44,793 nt of DNA from Anaerolinea sp. GTDB lineage: Bacteria > Chloroflexota > Anaerolineae > Anaerolineales > Villigracilaceae. Positions 27,155-30,551 of the stretch are shown here, piece by piece. The notes beneath the pieces are model-generated. The model was not told where the DNA came from and ran no database searches. It was given only the letters and a program-made list of their open reading frames with translations. Where the stretch lies: positions 1 through 44,793 of the forward strand of contig DYID01000028.1 in the NCBI GenBank assembly GCA_020723805.1, given 5' to 3'. The translations under genes and the position numbers were made by a program. Numbering within the stretch: the stretch's first letter is position 1; the number at the start of each line of letters is the position of its first letter.

Positions 27155-29848
27155 CTATGCCTCCATTTCGCCGAACCATCCCTTGCGCTCCATCCACTTC
27201 ACGAATTCGAGCACAGGGGAAATGGTCAGCGAGAGCGCGCCAATGATCAGCCAGTCCACGAGCGGCAGGCTGAAGGTGCCAAATGGTTCATGCAGAACGG
27301 GAACATACACAATGAGGAGGAGCAGAACCGCCTCCCAGAGAATCGCCATATTCAACCATTTGTTCTCGAACGGACGGTTGAAGATCGAGTGGCGGTCGGA
27401 GCGGAAGTTATACGCTTTGAAGAACTGCACCAGCACCAGCGAGACGAAGGTCATCGTCATCGCTTCTTCGATGCTGCGACCCGAGTTCAGCGCCCAAATG
27501 AACAGCCCCAGGTTGATGAGCGTGGACCAAAGCCCGCCGGCAACCATGAGCGCCACCACCGGGCGGGTGAAGATGCCGGTGCGCGGATTGCGCGGCTTGC
27601 GCTTCATCAGGTCCTTTTCGGGCGGGTCCACCGAGAGCGCCAGCGCGGGTAGACCGTCGGTGGCGAGGTTGACATAGAGAATTTGCACAGCGGTCAGCGG
27701 CAGAGGTAAGCCCAGCAGAGCGGAGCCAGCCATCAGACCGATCTCGCCGATGTTCGAGGAAAGCAGGTACATCAGGTATTTCTTGATGTTGCCGAACACG
27801 CCGCGCCCTTCTTCCACCGCCGCGACGATGGAGGCAAAGTTGTCGTCGGTCAGGGTCATGGCGGCGGCTTCTTTGGTCACGTCGGTGCCGGTGATACCCA
27901 TGGCGATGCCGATGTCGGCTTTCTTGAGGGCGGGGGCGTCGTTCACGCCGTCACCCGTCATGGCGACGATGTGTTCGTTTGCCTGCAACGCCGTGACCAC
28001 CCGTAGTTTGTGAGCGGGGGAGACGCGCGCGTACACGTCAATGGTTTCCACCTCGCGTTTGAAGTCCTCATCGGAGATGGCGTCGAGCTCCGCGCCGGTG
28101 ACCACGCGCCCGGTTTTGAGCAAGCCCAGTTCGCGCGCCACCGCCTCCGCCGTAACGGGATGGTCGCCCGTGATCATCACAGGGCGGATACCCGCCTCTT
28201 CGCACACGGCAATCGCCGCTTTTGCTTCGGGGCGCGGCGGGTCAATCATGCCGGTCAGCCCGAGGAAAGTCATGCCCGTTTGGGCAGTTTCAAGCGTGGC
28301 GTCGGGTTTTGAAGCGACGGCAAGCACACGCAGCGCCTGGCTGGCGAAATCCTTTGCCGTGTCCAGCACTTGCCGGCGGGTTGCTTCATCCAGTTTTTTC
28401 ACACCGTCGGCGGTGAGGATGAAGTCGCAGTTTTCCAGAATAATCTCGGGTGCGCCTTTGGTGTATGCGACGACGCCCTTGTCCGTTTTGTGGAGGGTCG
28501 TCATGCGCTTGGATTCGGACGTAAACGGAATCTCCTGCACGCGCGGATAGATTTGATCCAACGCTTCTTTCTGGACCCCTGCCTTGGCGGCGGCAACGAC
28601 CAGCGCTCCCTCCGTTGGGTCGCCTTTGATATCCCAATTGCCGCTCGAACCGTTGTTGCCATTCCTGACAAGTTTGGCGTCCGAGGCGAGCGCGGCGGCG
28701 GTGAGCAGTTGTTTGAGTTCGGCGCTGATTTCAGCAGGAGCGCCGCCGTTGACGGAAAAATGACCTTCGGGCGCATACCCCGATCCGCTCACGGTATAGA
28801 CCCGCCCCGCCACATAAATCTTGCGCACGGTCATCTCGTCCTTGGTGAGCGTGCCGGTTTTATCGGAACAAATCACCGACGTACTGCCGAGCGTCTCAAC
28901 GGCGGGCAGGCGGCGGATGAGCGCATTGCGTTTGACCATCTTCTGCACGCCGATGGCAAGCGAGATGGTCACCACCGCAGGCAGCGCCTCCGGCACAACC
29001 GCCACCGCCAGCGCAATGCCGAAGATGAGCATTTCGATGAAGGGCTGTCCGCGCAGGAGACCGAGCGCCACGATGATGGCAACCACGACGAACGCCGCGC
29101 GCGCCAGCGTTGCGCCGACCTTATCGAGATTCTGCTGAAGAGGGGTCTTGCTGGTTTCCACCGTTTGCAGAAGTTGCGCGATCTTGCCGAATTCGGTCTG
29201 CATGCCCGTTGCGACGATGAGGGCGCGTCCGCGCCCATAGGTGACGGCGGTTCCGGCGTAGACCATGTTCCTGCGGTCGCCCACAGGCAGGTCCTGAGTT
29301 GGAAGCGGGGCGGTATGTTTTTCCACCGGCACGGATTCACCCGTCAGCGCCGCCTCTTCAACTTGCAAATTGACCGATTCGATGACACGTCCATCCGCCG
29401 GGATGCGGTCACCCATGTGCAGGATGACCACGTCGCCGGGTACCACGTCGCGGGCGGGTATTTTCACCTCCTCGCCGTCGCGCAAGACCGTCGCAGTAGG
29501 CGCTGCCATTTGGCGTAACGCGTCAATGGCACGTTCGGCACGGTATTCCTGGATGAAACCAAGCAATACGGCAAACAGTACAATGACTGCGATGACGATG
29601 GACTCGACGCCGTGTCCGAGAAAGAACGAAATGGCAGTGGCACCGAGCAGGATGAGGATGAGCACGTTCTTGAACTGCTCGAGCAGGATTTCCCACGGCG
29701 AGACGCGATGCGCGGCTTGAATCTCGTTCGGTCCATGCTTTGCGAGCCGCACCTCCGCTTCTTTTTGACTTAGACCTGCTTCCCCGCTATCGAGCTCGGC
29801 AAACGCCTCGTCTTTGGTTTTGGTGTGCCAGTAATTACTTTGTTTCAT
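27155..29848 (-). CDS. P2-type cation-transporting ATPase, probable Mn2+/Ca2+ exporter
   Basis: The 897-residue protein is a complete P2A-like pump. It has an N-terminal cation-ATPase segment, the actuator motif LTGESVPV, the M4 ion-binding PEALP near residue 287, the phosphorylation site DKTGTLT near 330, the hinge motif TGDGVNDAPALKKADIGIAMG near 622, and M5-M6 with NIGEIG and NLATDGLPALALSVDPPEKD. The last sequence is typical of Ca2+-type pumps. A probable yybP-ykoY Mn2+ riboswitch controls the transcript, as for the Lactococcus YoaB P-type ATPase, so Mn2+ export is more likely than plain Ca2+ export. Its ATG overlaps the small upstream membrane protein gene by 14 bp. A terminator follows. 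Confidence 0.92.
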   Translation of the reverse strand: MKQSNYWHTKTKDEAFAELDSGEAGLSQKEAEVRLAKHGPNEIQAAHRVSPWEILLEQFKNVLILILLGATAISFFLGHGVESIVIAVIVLFAVLLGFIQEYRAERAIDALRQMAAPTATVLRDGEEVKIPARDVVPGDVVILHMGDRIPADGRVIESVNLQVEEAALTGESVPVEKHTAPLPTQDLPVGDRRNMVYAGTAVTYGRGRALIVATGMQTEFGKIAQLLQTVETSKTPLQQNLDKVGATLARAAFVVVAIIVALGLLRGQPFIEMLIFGIALAVAVVPEALPAVVTISLAIGVQKMVKRNALIRRLPAVETLGSTSVICSDKTGTLTKDEMTVRKIYVAGRVYTVSGSGYAPEGHFSVNGGAPAEISAELKQLLTAAALASDAKLVRNGNNGSSGNWDIKGDPTEGALVVAAAKAGVQKEALDQIYPRVQEIPFTSESKRMTTLHKTDKGVVAYTKGAPEIILENCDFILTADGVKKLDEATRRQVLDTAKDFASQALRVLAVASKPDATLETAQTGMTFLGLTGMIDPPRPEAKAAIAVCEEAGIRPVMITGDHPVTAEAVARELGLLKTGRVVTGAELDAISDEDFKREVETIDVYARVSPAHKLRVVTALQANEHIVAMTGDGVNDAPALKKADIGIAMGITGTDVTKEAAAMTLTDDNFASIVAAVEEGRGVFGNIKKYLMYLLSSNIGEIGLMAGSALLGLPLPLTAVQILYVNLATDGLPALALSVDPPEKDLMKRKPRNPRTGIFTRPVVALMVAGGLWSTLINLGLFIWALNSGRSIEEAMTMTFVSLVLVQFFKAYNFRSDRHSIFNRPFENKWLNMAILWEAVLLLLIVYVPVLHEPFGTFSLPLVDWLIIGALSLTISPVLEFVKWMERKGWFGEMEA

Positions 29849-30080
29849 GGTTAAGGTTGAACTCCTGTTTGTTTATGTCTTCTTTTCTGGGTGTGGCAGA
29901 TTTGAACACGAAATGGTTGAACAGCAGGATGGGACCCGCTACGAGAAGCACCGCCAGCAGGGAGAGGATATCCAGCCAGATGGCGAGAATTTCCTCGAGC
30001 CAGATGAAAATGGTTGTGCCTCCCGCGCCCGTGGCGAGGGCGGGCTTCCAATACCTTCGCAGGGCAGACTTGGCGGACAT
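29835..30080 (-). CDS. small membrane protein cotranscribed with the P-type ATPase
   Basis: The 81-residue protein has a basic N-terminus (SAKSALRRYWKP), a long hydrophobic region about residues 15-60 that can make two membrane helices (TIFIWLEEILAIWLDILSLL, then VLLVAGPILLFNHFVF) and a polar tail. No family is recognised. The ATG at 30080 has GGAG 7 nt upstream; a TTG one codon earlier is a weaker start. It overlaps the ATPase gene by 14 bp and is the first gene after the riboswitch terminator. It could be a small regulatory or stabilising partner of the pump, as seen for other P-type ATPases, but this is inference. Confidence 0.75.
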   Translation of the reverse strand: MSAKSALRRYWKPALATGAGGTTIFIWLEEILAIWLDILSLLAVLLVAGPILLFNHFVFKSATPRKEDINKQEFNLNHETK

Positions 30081-30111
30081 CAACTTGCTCCTTTCTCGTT
30101 ATGAGGCGGGG

Positions 30112-30148
30112 AAAAGAAAAAGACCACCGCCTTGAAGGTGATGGTCTT
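30112..30148 (-). terminator. riboswitch-associated intrinsic terminator
   Basis: On the minus strand AAGACCATCACC and GGCGGTGGTCTT pair (one mismatch, one G-U) around TTCAA, followed by TTTTCTTTT. It lies between the aptamer and the first gene and about 30 nt before its start codon. Confidence 0.88.
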
Positions 30149-30240
30149 GCACTTTCATCCTGACAGCCGGTGGCATTTTGCGCCACGTCATGACGACTAC
30201 CAGGCCCGAAACCGGTTCGGGGGCTACTCCCCATCGGAGT
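30120..30240 (-). promoter_or_regulatory. probable yybP-ykoY (Mn2+) riboswitch
   Basis: The minus-strand leader begins near the predicted transcription start and contains the family hallmark GGGGAGTAG (complement of 30224-30232), then a second paired arm (TGGCG/TGCCA region followed by GGCTGTCAGGATGA) resembling the second loop domain, and finally a terminator. Known members bind Mn2+ and turn on efflux genes by preventing terminator formation. The position ahead of a P2-type ATPase fits. Assigned by eye, not by covariance model. Confidence 0.75.
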
Positions 30241-30246
30241 GATTAG

Positions 30247-30275
30247 AGTTTACAGTGGAACTGCGCTTGTGTCAA
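30247..30275 (-). promoter_or_regulatory. sigma-70-type promoter of the riboswitch/ATPase operon
   Basis: TTGACA (complement of 30270-30275) and TAAACT (complement of 30247-30252) are separated by exactly 17 nt. The predicted start near 30240 lies just before the riboswitch. Confidence 0.8.
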
Positions 30276-30344: not shown

Positions 30345-30440
30345 ATTATTAACTCACCTTGCGCAGTTCCTTCGTAGCGCGACATTTATGTCGCCTGAAA
30401 TCGCGAGATGAATCTCGCGCTACCGCGTAACATCAATTAT
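30345..30440. repeat. palindromic repeat element, copy B1 (type 2)
   Basis: Ends ATTATTAACTCACCTTGCGC and GCGTAACATCAATTATTAA are imperfect inverted repeats. The interior has GTAGCGCGACATTTATGTCGC and GCGAGATGAATCTCGC hairpins. Its complement matches copy C at 36564-36681. It is joined head to head with copy B2. With the promoter and riboswitch, B1 and B2 fill the 471-bp gap between the small membrane protein and the DUF2817 gene. Confidence 0.8.
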
Positions 30441-30533
30441 TAACTGATGTTACGTACCGTCCCGAAGGTTTAGCTGAAAAATAGACGCAATTTGAGAGAA
30501 CCTTCGGGACGTTTCGCGTAAGGTGAGTTATTG
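30436..30533. repeat. palindromic repeat element, copy B2 (type 1)
   Basis: The complement of copy A (2515-2611) with only a few differences: same terminal sequences, same GTCCCGAAGGTT/AACCTTCGGGAC hairpin arms. It ends about 18 bp before the stop codon of the DUF2817 gene on the minus strand. Confidence 0.85.
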
Positions 30534-30551
30534 ATCTGCAATAGACTTGTC

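Follow-up and report, generated by a model that had tools for sequence, protein, structure and literature searches.

Introduction

Genes of the TerC and MntP types are the classical company of the yybP-ykoY riboswitch, and the leaders of alx and mntP in Escherichia coli, which precede exporters of the TerC and MntP types and not P-type ATPases, are known Mn2+ riboswitches. The gene yoaB of Lactococcus lactis encodes a P-type ATPase, and its leader carries the L1 element of the class. In Streptococcus pneumoniae, mgtA is said, in the title of a 2019 article by Martin et al., to encode a Mn2+/Ca2+ ATPase under a Mn-sensing riboswitch. Binding of Mn2+ to an invariant adenosine in L3 is described as stabilizing helix P1.1 and preventing formation of the terminator (PMC6754395, PMC11087558, PMC9190785), a Mn2+-binding role is given to A41 of the L. 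lactis aptamer (PMC9190785), and the switch of mntP is called translational (PMC11647493). Here we analyze a stretch of 44,793 nucleotides (nt) from Anaerolinea sp. (Chloroflexota; assembly GCA_020723805.1, contig DYID01000028.1, positions 1 to 44,793), referred to as the window, in which a leader that we read as a Mn2+ riboswitch precedes a gene for an 81-residue membrane protein and a gene for a P2A-type cation ATPase.

We consider it about 80% probable that this unit is a manganese-responsive export operon under riboswitch control and that the small protein is a functional part of it. The pairing of a Mn2+ riboswitch with a P-type ATPase is already known; the family of the small protein, its fusion to the ATPase, its copy standing alone behind a riboswitch leader, and the failure of the Rfam cut-off throughout the clade are, as far as open-access searches go, undescribed.

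Structure and Conservation of the Leader

The earlier note, made from the window sequence alone, had joined a promoter of 17-nt spacing, a leader, a terminator, the 81-residue membrane protein and the P2A-type ATPase into one unit; all of these elements were found, on the minus strand. The aptamer spans positions 30138-30239 and comprises the conserved L1 element GGGGAGTAG (30232-30224), a P2 hairpin CCCGAA...TTCGGG (30205-30221), a P3 arm that includes the conserved GTCGTCA loop side (30160-30203), and the segment GCAAGACC (30150-30143). The P1 switch helix is formed by a 5' strand GATGG (30231-30235) and a 3' strand CCATC (30140-30144), and the latter is common to the 5' arm of an intrinsic terminator with its T run (30117-30148). 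The arms of the terminator hairpin, AAGACCATCACC and GGCGGTGGTCTT, occupy 30148-30120 ahead of the T tract and contain one A.C mismatch in the window copy. P1 and the terminator thus compete for one strand and are mutually exclusive. The adenosine at 30191 would be the counterpart of A41, the invariant Mn2+-binding residue in the L. lactis aptamer, to which it was matched by motif and not by structure.

When the genome of the window and those of 100 relatives (101 in all) were searched with the small protein, 15 good loci emerged, that of the window among them, to which 26 named GTDB loci were added, and a complete leader of the form GGGGAGTAG...GCAAGAC is present in 13 of the 15 good loci. 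Thirty distinct related leaders, gathered with the pattern GGRGAGTA...GCAAGAC, were aligned. The adenosine matching 30191 and L1, with GGGGAGUAG and the element GGGGAGTAG, are invariant in 30 of 30 leaders, the conservation of the L1 pattern letters being due in part to selection by the gathering pattern, that of the adenosine not. Helices P1 and P3 are paired in 98.5% of the alignment cells and show changes on both sides in 8 of their 18 pairs, all 8 in P3; none of 500 shuffles reaches this covariation score. The alternative fold with the terminator is paired in 99.0% of cells, with both-sided changes in 10 of 23 pairs, and the leader of the window folds better than 199 of 200 shuffles (z -2.44). 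At the 5' end, a CTCC/GGAG pairing predicted from the consensus fold (30228-30240, minus strand) may form an alternative hairpin competing with P1.

A pattern scan places a sigma-70-type promoter, TTGACA-17-TAAACT with 10 of 12 matches, at 30275-30247, from which transcription would start near 30240, just before the aptamer and adjoining the 5' strand of P1; the leader opens with CTCCGATGGGGAGTAGC. As patterns in a lone sequence, promoter and terminator are near chance (one found each, against 0.5 and 0.8 expected per region). They rise above chance because they are conserved among the related leaders, the terminator through pairing with compensatory changes and the promoter through its spacing: in 29 of the 30 leaders the best upstream site agrees with the consensus at 9 or more of 12 positions, the spacer is 17 nt long in 29 of 30, and in 25 of 30 the distance from the end of the -10 box to GGGGAGTAG is 14 nt. 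Behind the terminator, a Shine-Dalgarno sequence AAAGGAG (30088-30094) precedes the gene of the small protein (29835-30080), which begins with ATG at 30080 and whose stop codon ends at 29835. The gene of the 897-residue ATPase (27155-29848) begins with ATG at 29848 and overlaps the small gene by 14 nt. Farther upstream, the gap before the promoter contains nested inverted repeats with arms of 14 to 21 nt (30374-30535).

Recognition of the Leader by RNA Models

At gathering cut-offs, Rfam gives no match in the whole window. The RF00080 scan on which the earlier note had made its riboswitch reading depend thus fell short of the gathering score of 45 bits, but at a permissive threshold it returned an end-to-end match at 30249-30098 on the minus strand (20.8 bits, E = 5e-4 for 271 bases). 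Among the 101 genomes none reaches the cut-off, the best relative scoring 36.2 bits, and 15 contain a match at E <= 0.01. A genome of L. lactis, from which the crystallized member comes, served as control in the same scan, and under its stricter filters no RF00080 match at E <= 0.01 was found there. With 0 of 101 genomes above it and no match in the L. lactis control, the cut-off is a poor exclusion test for the class, and we rejected the missing gathering-level match as a refutation, the window's own genome being one of the 101. When Rfam was run on 15 of the related loci, RF00080 appeared in two (29.0 and 19.9 bits), below its cut-off, and the streptococcal family RF02617, presumably a riboswitch of the Mn-sensing mgtA kind, appeared in two others (32.5 bits in L018 and 24.0 bits), below a cut-off of 56.

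From the 30 related leaders we built R1, a covariance model of the aptamer part with 98 positions. It matches the window over its full length (87.3 bits, E 3e-17), a score that is not independent, the window leader having been among the sequences from which R1 was built. For a reciprocal test, two stretches of the E. coli K-12 genome amounting to 45,002 bases were chosen because they hold alx and mntP. At E <= 10, R1 finds exactly two matches in them, one in each of the two leaders. That of alx lies 117 nt before the gene (L127, 13373-13464, E 0.083); that of mntP lies 197 nt before the gene (L128, 10463-10492, E 0.073) and spans only the two ends of the model. Known members of the riboswitch class are therefore recognized by a model derived from the Chloroflexota leaders. 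In the 101 genomes R1 gives 94 matches at E <= 0.01, distributed over 60 genomes, and 52 of 301 genomes of an even sample of the phylum contain matches.

By its structure, this reciprocal recognition and its genomic context, we read the leader as a member of the yybP-ykoY Mn2+ riboswitch class acting as an ON switch. The claim of the earlier note for such a riboswitch is supported, although the RF00080 cut-off fails, by the restriction of the R1 matches in 45 kb of E. coli to alx and mntP, by the adenosine kept in every aligned leader, and by sister leaders that precede TerC genes. A switch helix sharing a strand with the terminator, as P1.1 does in the class, is also present, though P1 is without covariation.

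Genes Downstream of Related Leaders

Genes linked to Mn2+ homeostasis, as found behind this class of leaders, predominate downstream of the R1 matches. At least 70 of the 94 matches are followed within 4 kb on the same strand by a P2A-type ATPase gene, at least 45 of these within 250 nt. For the other 24 matches, the downstream genes were read in 18 cases. TerC-like genes follow 8 of the 18 leaders, three of the eight encoding near-identical proteins, and all six of the eight that were tested with Pfam match TerC (E 9e-57 to 3e-53). An ATPase is nevertheless present downstream in two of the 18, in L130 beyond a VTT/DedA gene and in L138, where the contig end cuts it.

Behind five leaders (L134, L135, L136, L140, and L142) we read from the sequence genes resembling ATPases and permeases of ATP-binding cassette (ABC) transporters, an association that, to our knowledge, has not been noted for the yybP-ykoY riboswitch. 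Genes of the VTT/DedA family occur behind Mn-type leaders in L130, L131, L013, L010, L012, L015, and L019, mostly before an ATPase unit (three were tested with Pfam), and in some relatives a VTT/DedA gene and short open reading frames (ORFs) lie between leader and small gene; an open-access literature search found no paper with both DedA and yybP-ykoY. The leader with the top R1 score of the 101-genome scan (110.7 bits; L129, 259-513, in G046:C318) precedes a short ORF whose last 42 residues, counted from a Met, resemble a single-helix membrane protein. Neither an ATPase nor a member of the small-protein family follows there, and the next gene lies on the opposite strand. In three genomes (L147, L148, and G007:C54) tandem leaders occur upstream of a close ATPase, and in both regions read a glucose-1-phosphate-adenylyltransferase-like gene lies between them.

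The P2A-Type ATPase

The 897-residue protein has the P-type domains, the DKTGTLT motif, and the ion ligands of transmembrane segments M4, M5, and M6, and is a P2A cation ATPase. Its closest relatives in the PDB are LMCA1 of Listeria (lmo0841, E 3e-186) and SPCA1 (ATPase type 2C member 1). The NCBIfam subtype cut-offs are missed both for the PMR1 type (TIGR01522, 754.3 versus 798.3 bits) and for the SERCA type (TIGR01116, 693.6 versus 703.4 bits). Residues E287 (M4), N699 and E702 (M5), and N727, T730, and D731 (M6), which align with the SERCA ligands, are conserved throughout the close group (36 of 36 sequences, the window's included) and in all five of the more distant ATPases. At the position matching E908 of SERCA, 34 of the 36 have Q, one has E, and one has a gap. 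The ATPase sequence alone does not separate Ca2+ from Mn2+. Regulation by the leader suggests that the enzyme is probably a Mn2+ exporter, possibly a Mn2+/Ca2+ exporter.

The genome of the window contains a second unit of this kind, in which a leader (G000:C13:198380-198482, plus strand; R1 E 0.02) precedes another P2A-type ATPase (L155, L209). This ATPase, encoded by a 973-residue frame, is 49% identical to that of the window, and no small gene lies between it and the leader.

The Small Membrane Protein

The 81-residue protein has one clear hydrophobic helix at about residues 31-59, followed by a basic stretch; ahead of the helix are WKPALATGAGG, W27, E29, and E30. Among 26 sequences of the family, which carry the signature WKPx3TGAGG...WxEE...FK...P, 11 positions are invariant, and in 67 close pairs, which are not mutually independent, 57% of the nucleotide differences (1964 of 3454) fall on third codon positions. 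Pfam and NCBIfam contain no match above noise and provide no family name, and none of the titles and abstract beginnings listed by an open-access literature search describes such a protein. AlphaFold proposes one long helix (19-62) with flanking helices at low global confidence (predicted template modelling score, pTM, 0.36).

In profile-profile comparison, the small protein matches the C-terminal segment of DUF4126 (PF13548) over 47 columns with a probability of 86 and an E-value of 5e-6 for one comparison; the score of 37.2 exceeds those of the reversed profile (24.8) and of the best of 100 composition-keeping shuffles (18.4). PF13548 matches none of the 26 members at E <= 10, and we do not assign the family to DUF4126. 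An open-access literature search gave a single paper naming this domain, and no function was found in it. Shared ancestry with the C-terminal segment is suggested by the profiles. Five DUF4126 proteins (L024, L028, L029, L032, and L034, two of them Pfam-tested), 180 to 193 residues long, surfaced among the weak matches of the small protein (E 0.003 to 0.1), and within the loci examined none of the five lies beside such an ATPase. Other weak matches, in ABC-transporter-like frames, were taken as chance (two were read).

The family is narrow, and we claim no wide distribution: the small gene occurs in 4 of 301 genomes of the even phylum sample and in 38 genomes of an even sample of 400 from the order. 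In 36 of these 38 carriers it lies just upstream of a close relative of the window ATPase. Of 36 surveyed loci, 35 have the two genes within 700 nt, 32 of these 35 within 70 nt, with G095 adding the 36th genome, and 30 of the 36 show a leader within the available flanks. In the 26 named GTDB loci, several of which are the same contigs as loci of the genome sample so that the sets are not independent, an ATPase follows in 25 and a leader precedes in 25; both misses are at contig ends, L051 ending before the ATPase and L050 beginning after the leader. In G070 the small protein is fused in frame to the ATPase, on a single contig where a sequencing indel is possible. In L016/L171 (G056), small gene and ATPase share a frame, with only TGA and some codons between them. 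G662 has the small gene by itself behind a leader copy of its own, the next gene being unrelated and on the opposite strand, and the nearest ATPase (70% identical) sits elsewhere under another leader. The participation of the small protein in the system, as proposed in the earlier note, is supported by the conserved adjacency, the fusion and the stand-alone copy.

The note had also raised the question of whether the small gene always accompanies riboswitch-linked ATPases, and it does not: besides the second unit of the same genome, it is missing from 9 of the 25 ATPases listed in the 101 genomes as at least 70% identical to that of the window, the remainder comprising 15 with the small gene and one fused. 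On an ATPase tree from a quick search under LG+G4, which included 8 of the 9 ATPases without it, presence of the small gene needs at least four changes, and gains are not separable from losses.

Discussion

We propose that at low Mn2+ the leader RNA would form the terminator and transcription would stop at about 30117, and that at high Mn2+ the aptamer would close and P1 would block the terminator. Small protein and pump would then be made together at high Mn2+, and the P2A ATPase would export Mn2+, possibly Ca2+ as well. The small protein, made just before the pump, would most likely act as a dedicated subunit, bound to the ATPase within the membrane and tuning or assisting its work. Taken alone, this last assignment, which draws on genomic evidence, seems to us slightly favored.

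Several observations weigh against the proposed export operon. The ATPase family is annotated as Ca2+-transporting, the gathering score of RF00080 is missed, and the E-values of R1 in E. coli are modest. P1 shows no compensatory changes, since four of its six pairs never vary and the other two depart by unpaired cells only, and in the window copy a single base breaks both a pair of P1 and a pair of the terminator. Because 9 of 25 close ATPases lack the small gene and the G662 copy stands apart, such a pump can work without the small gene in cis.

If the small protein were a membrane protein of the Mn regulon with a job of its own, for example in metalation or membrane protection, and not a subunit of the ATPase, the rest of our reading would stand. 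The stand-alone gene in G662 would fit this, as would the presence of other membrane genes (VTT/DedA) in the same operons, the different 42-residue membrane ORF behind the leader of the same kind in G046, and the resemblance to DUF4126 proteins, the five encountered here belonging to loci that lack an ATPase of this kind. However, the small gene adjoins a close ATPase in 36 of 38 genomes and is fused to it in one, and even G662 has an ATPase of this kind, placed behind another leader. We regard a separate function as a serious but rather unlikely possibility.

Considerably less probable is that the leader, though related to yybP-ykoY, responds to a different divalent ion, e.g., Ca2+, and that the ATPase is a Ca2+ pump as annotated. 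The likeness of the enzyme to LMCA1 and SPCA1 and its SERCA-like ion ligands would agree with a Ca2+ pump. Variants of the yybP motif that prefer other metals are considered likely (PMC7266159), and the pneumococcal mgtA leader is termed Mn/Ca2+-sensing, the exporter MgtA being linked to both ions (PMC11434433). In contrast, the presumed Mn-binding adenosine and L1 do not vary among the 30 leaders, R1 also finds the leaders of alx, mntP, and TerC genes, and SPCA1 itself is described as a pump for Ca2+ and Mn2+ (PMC5143377). That the small ORF merely delivers ribosomes to the start of the ATPase gene, its protein being functionless, would agree with its overlap with, or position close to, that start in most loci and with its absence at 9 of the 25 close ATPases, but is very improbable given the 11 invariant positions, the 57% of changes at third codon positions, the in-frame fusion in G070, the intact gene alone under its own leader in G662, and the gaps of 175 to 489 nt in L048, L049, L063, and L066, where coupling is unlikely.

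Returning to the export operon, a more far-reaching proposal, which we advance tentatively and hold to be somewhat doubtful, is that the 81-residue family serves a bacterial P2A-type Mn2+ exporter as its dedicated regulatory subunit, a counterpart of sarcolipin or phospholamban whose supply is tied to Mn2+ by the shared riboswitch and which shares ancestry with, or derives from, the C-terminal segment of DUF4126. The small protein is in any case a concrete candidate for a subunit of a bacterial P-type ATPase, linked to it by adjacency, one fusion, and riboswitch control. The unit also leads to a predicted substrate for P2A ATPases that carry a calcium-pump annotation in Chloroflexota, most of them uncultured, and the Rfam cut-off for the Mn2+ riboswitch is attained in 0 of 101 genomes of the group, against 60 of 101 in which R1, derived from close relatives, detects it.

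Small membrane regulators of P-type ATPases are represented by sarcolipin and phospholamban, which act on SERCA, and by KdpF and MgtR; MntS is a further small protein, linked to Mn control. The Chloroflexota protein resembles these in being short, in having one clear hydrophobic helix, and in its link to a pump or to Mn control, and differs in that its gene belongs to the riboswitch operon of a P2A pump and is conserved together with that pump. Among the riboswitches, the E. coli leaders of alx and mntP are connected to the present one through their recognition by R1. The mgtA system of S. pneumoniae also combines a riboswitch with a P-type ATPase, which is reported to export Mn2+ and to be linked to Ca2+ (PMC9331361, PMC11434433) and called P1B-type in one of these papers (PMC11434433); it belongs to another phylum, and the accessible parts of the two papers mention no small partner. 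The yoaB leader of L. lactis (crystal structure 4Y1I), as described in PMC9190785 and PMC11087558, shares with the window L1 and L3, a P1 switch helix that overlaps the terminator, a downstream gene for Mn2+ homeostasis, and operation as an ON switch, whereas in the Chloroflexota, a different phylum, the gene of a small membrane protein is situated between switch and pump.

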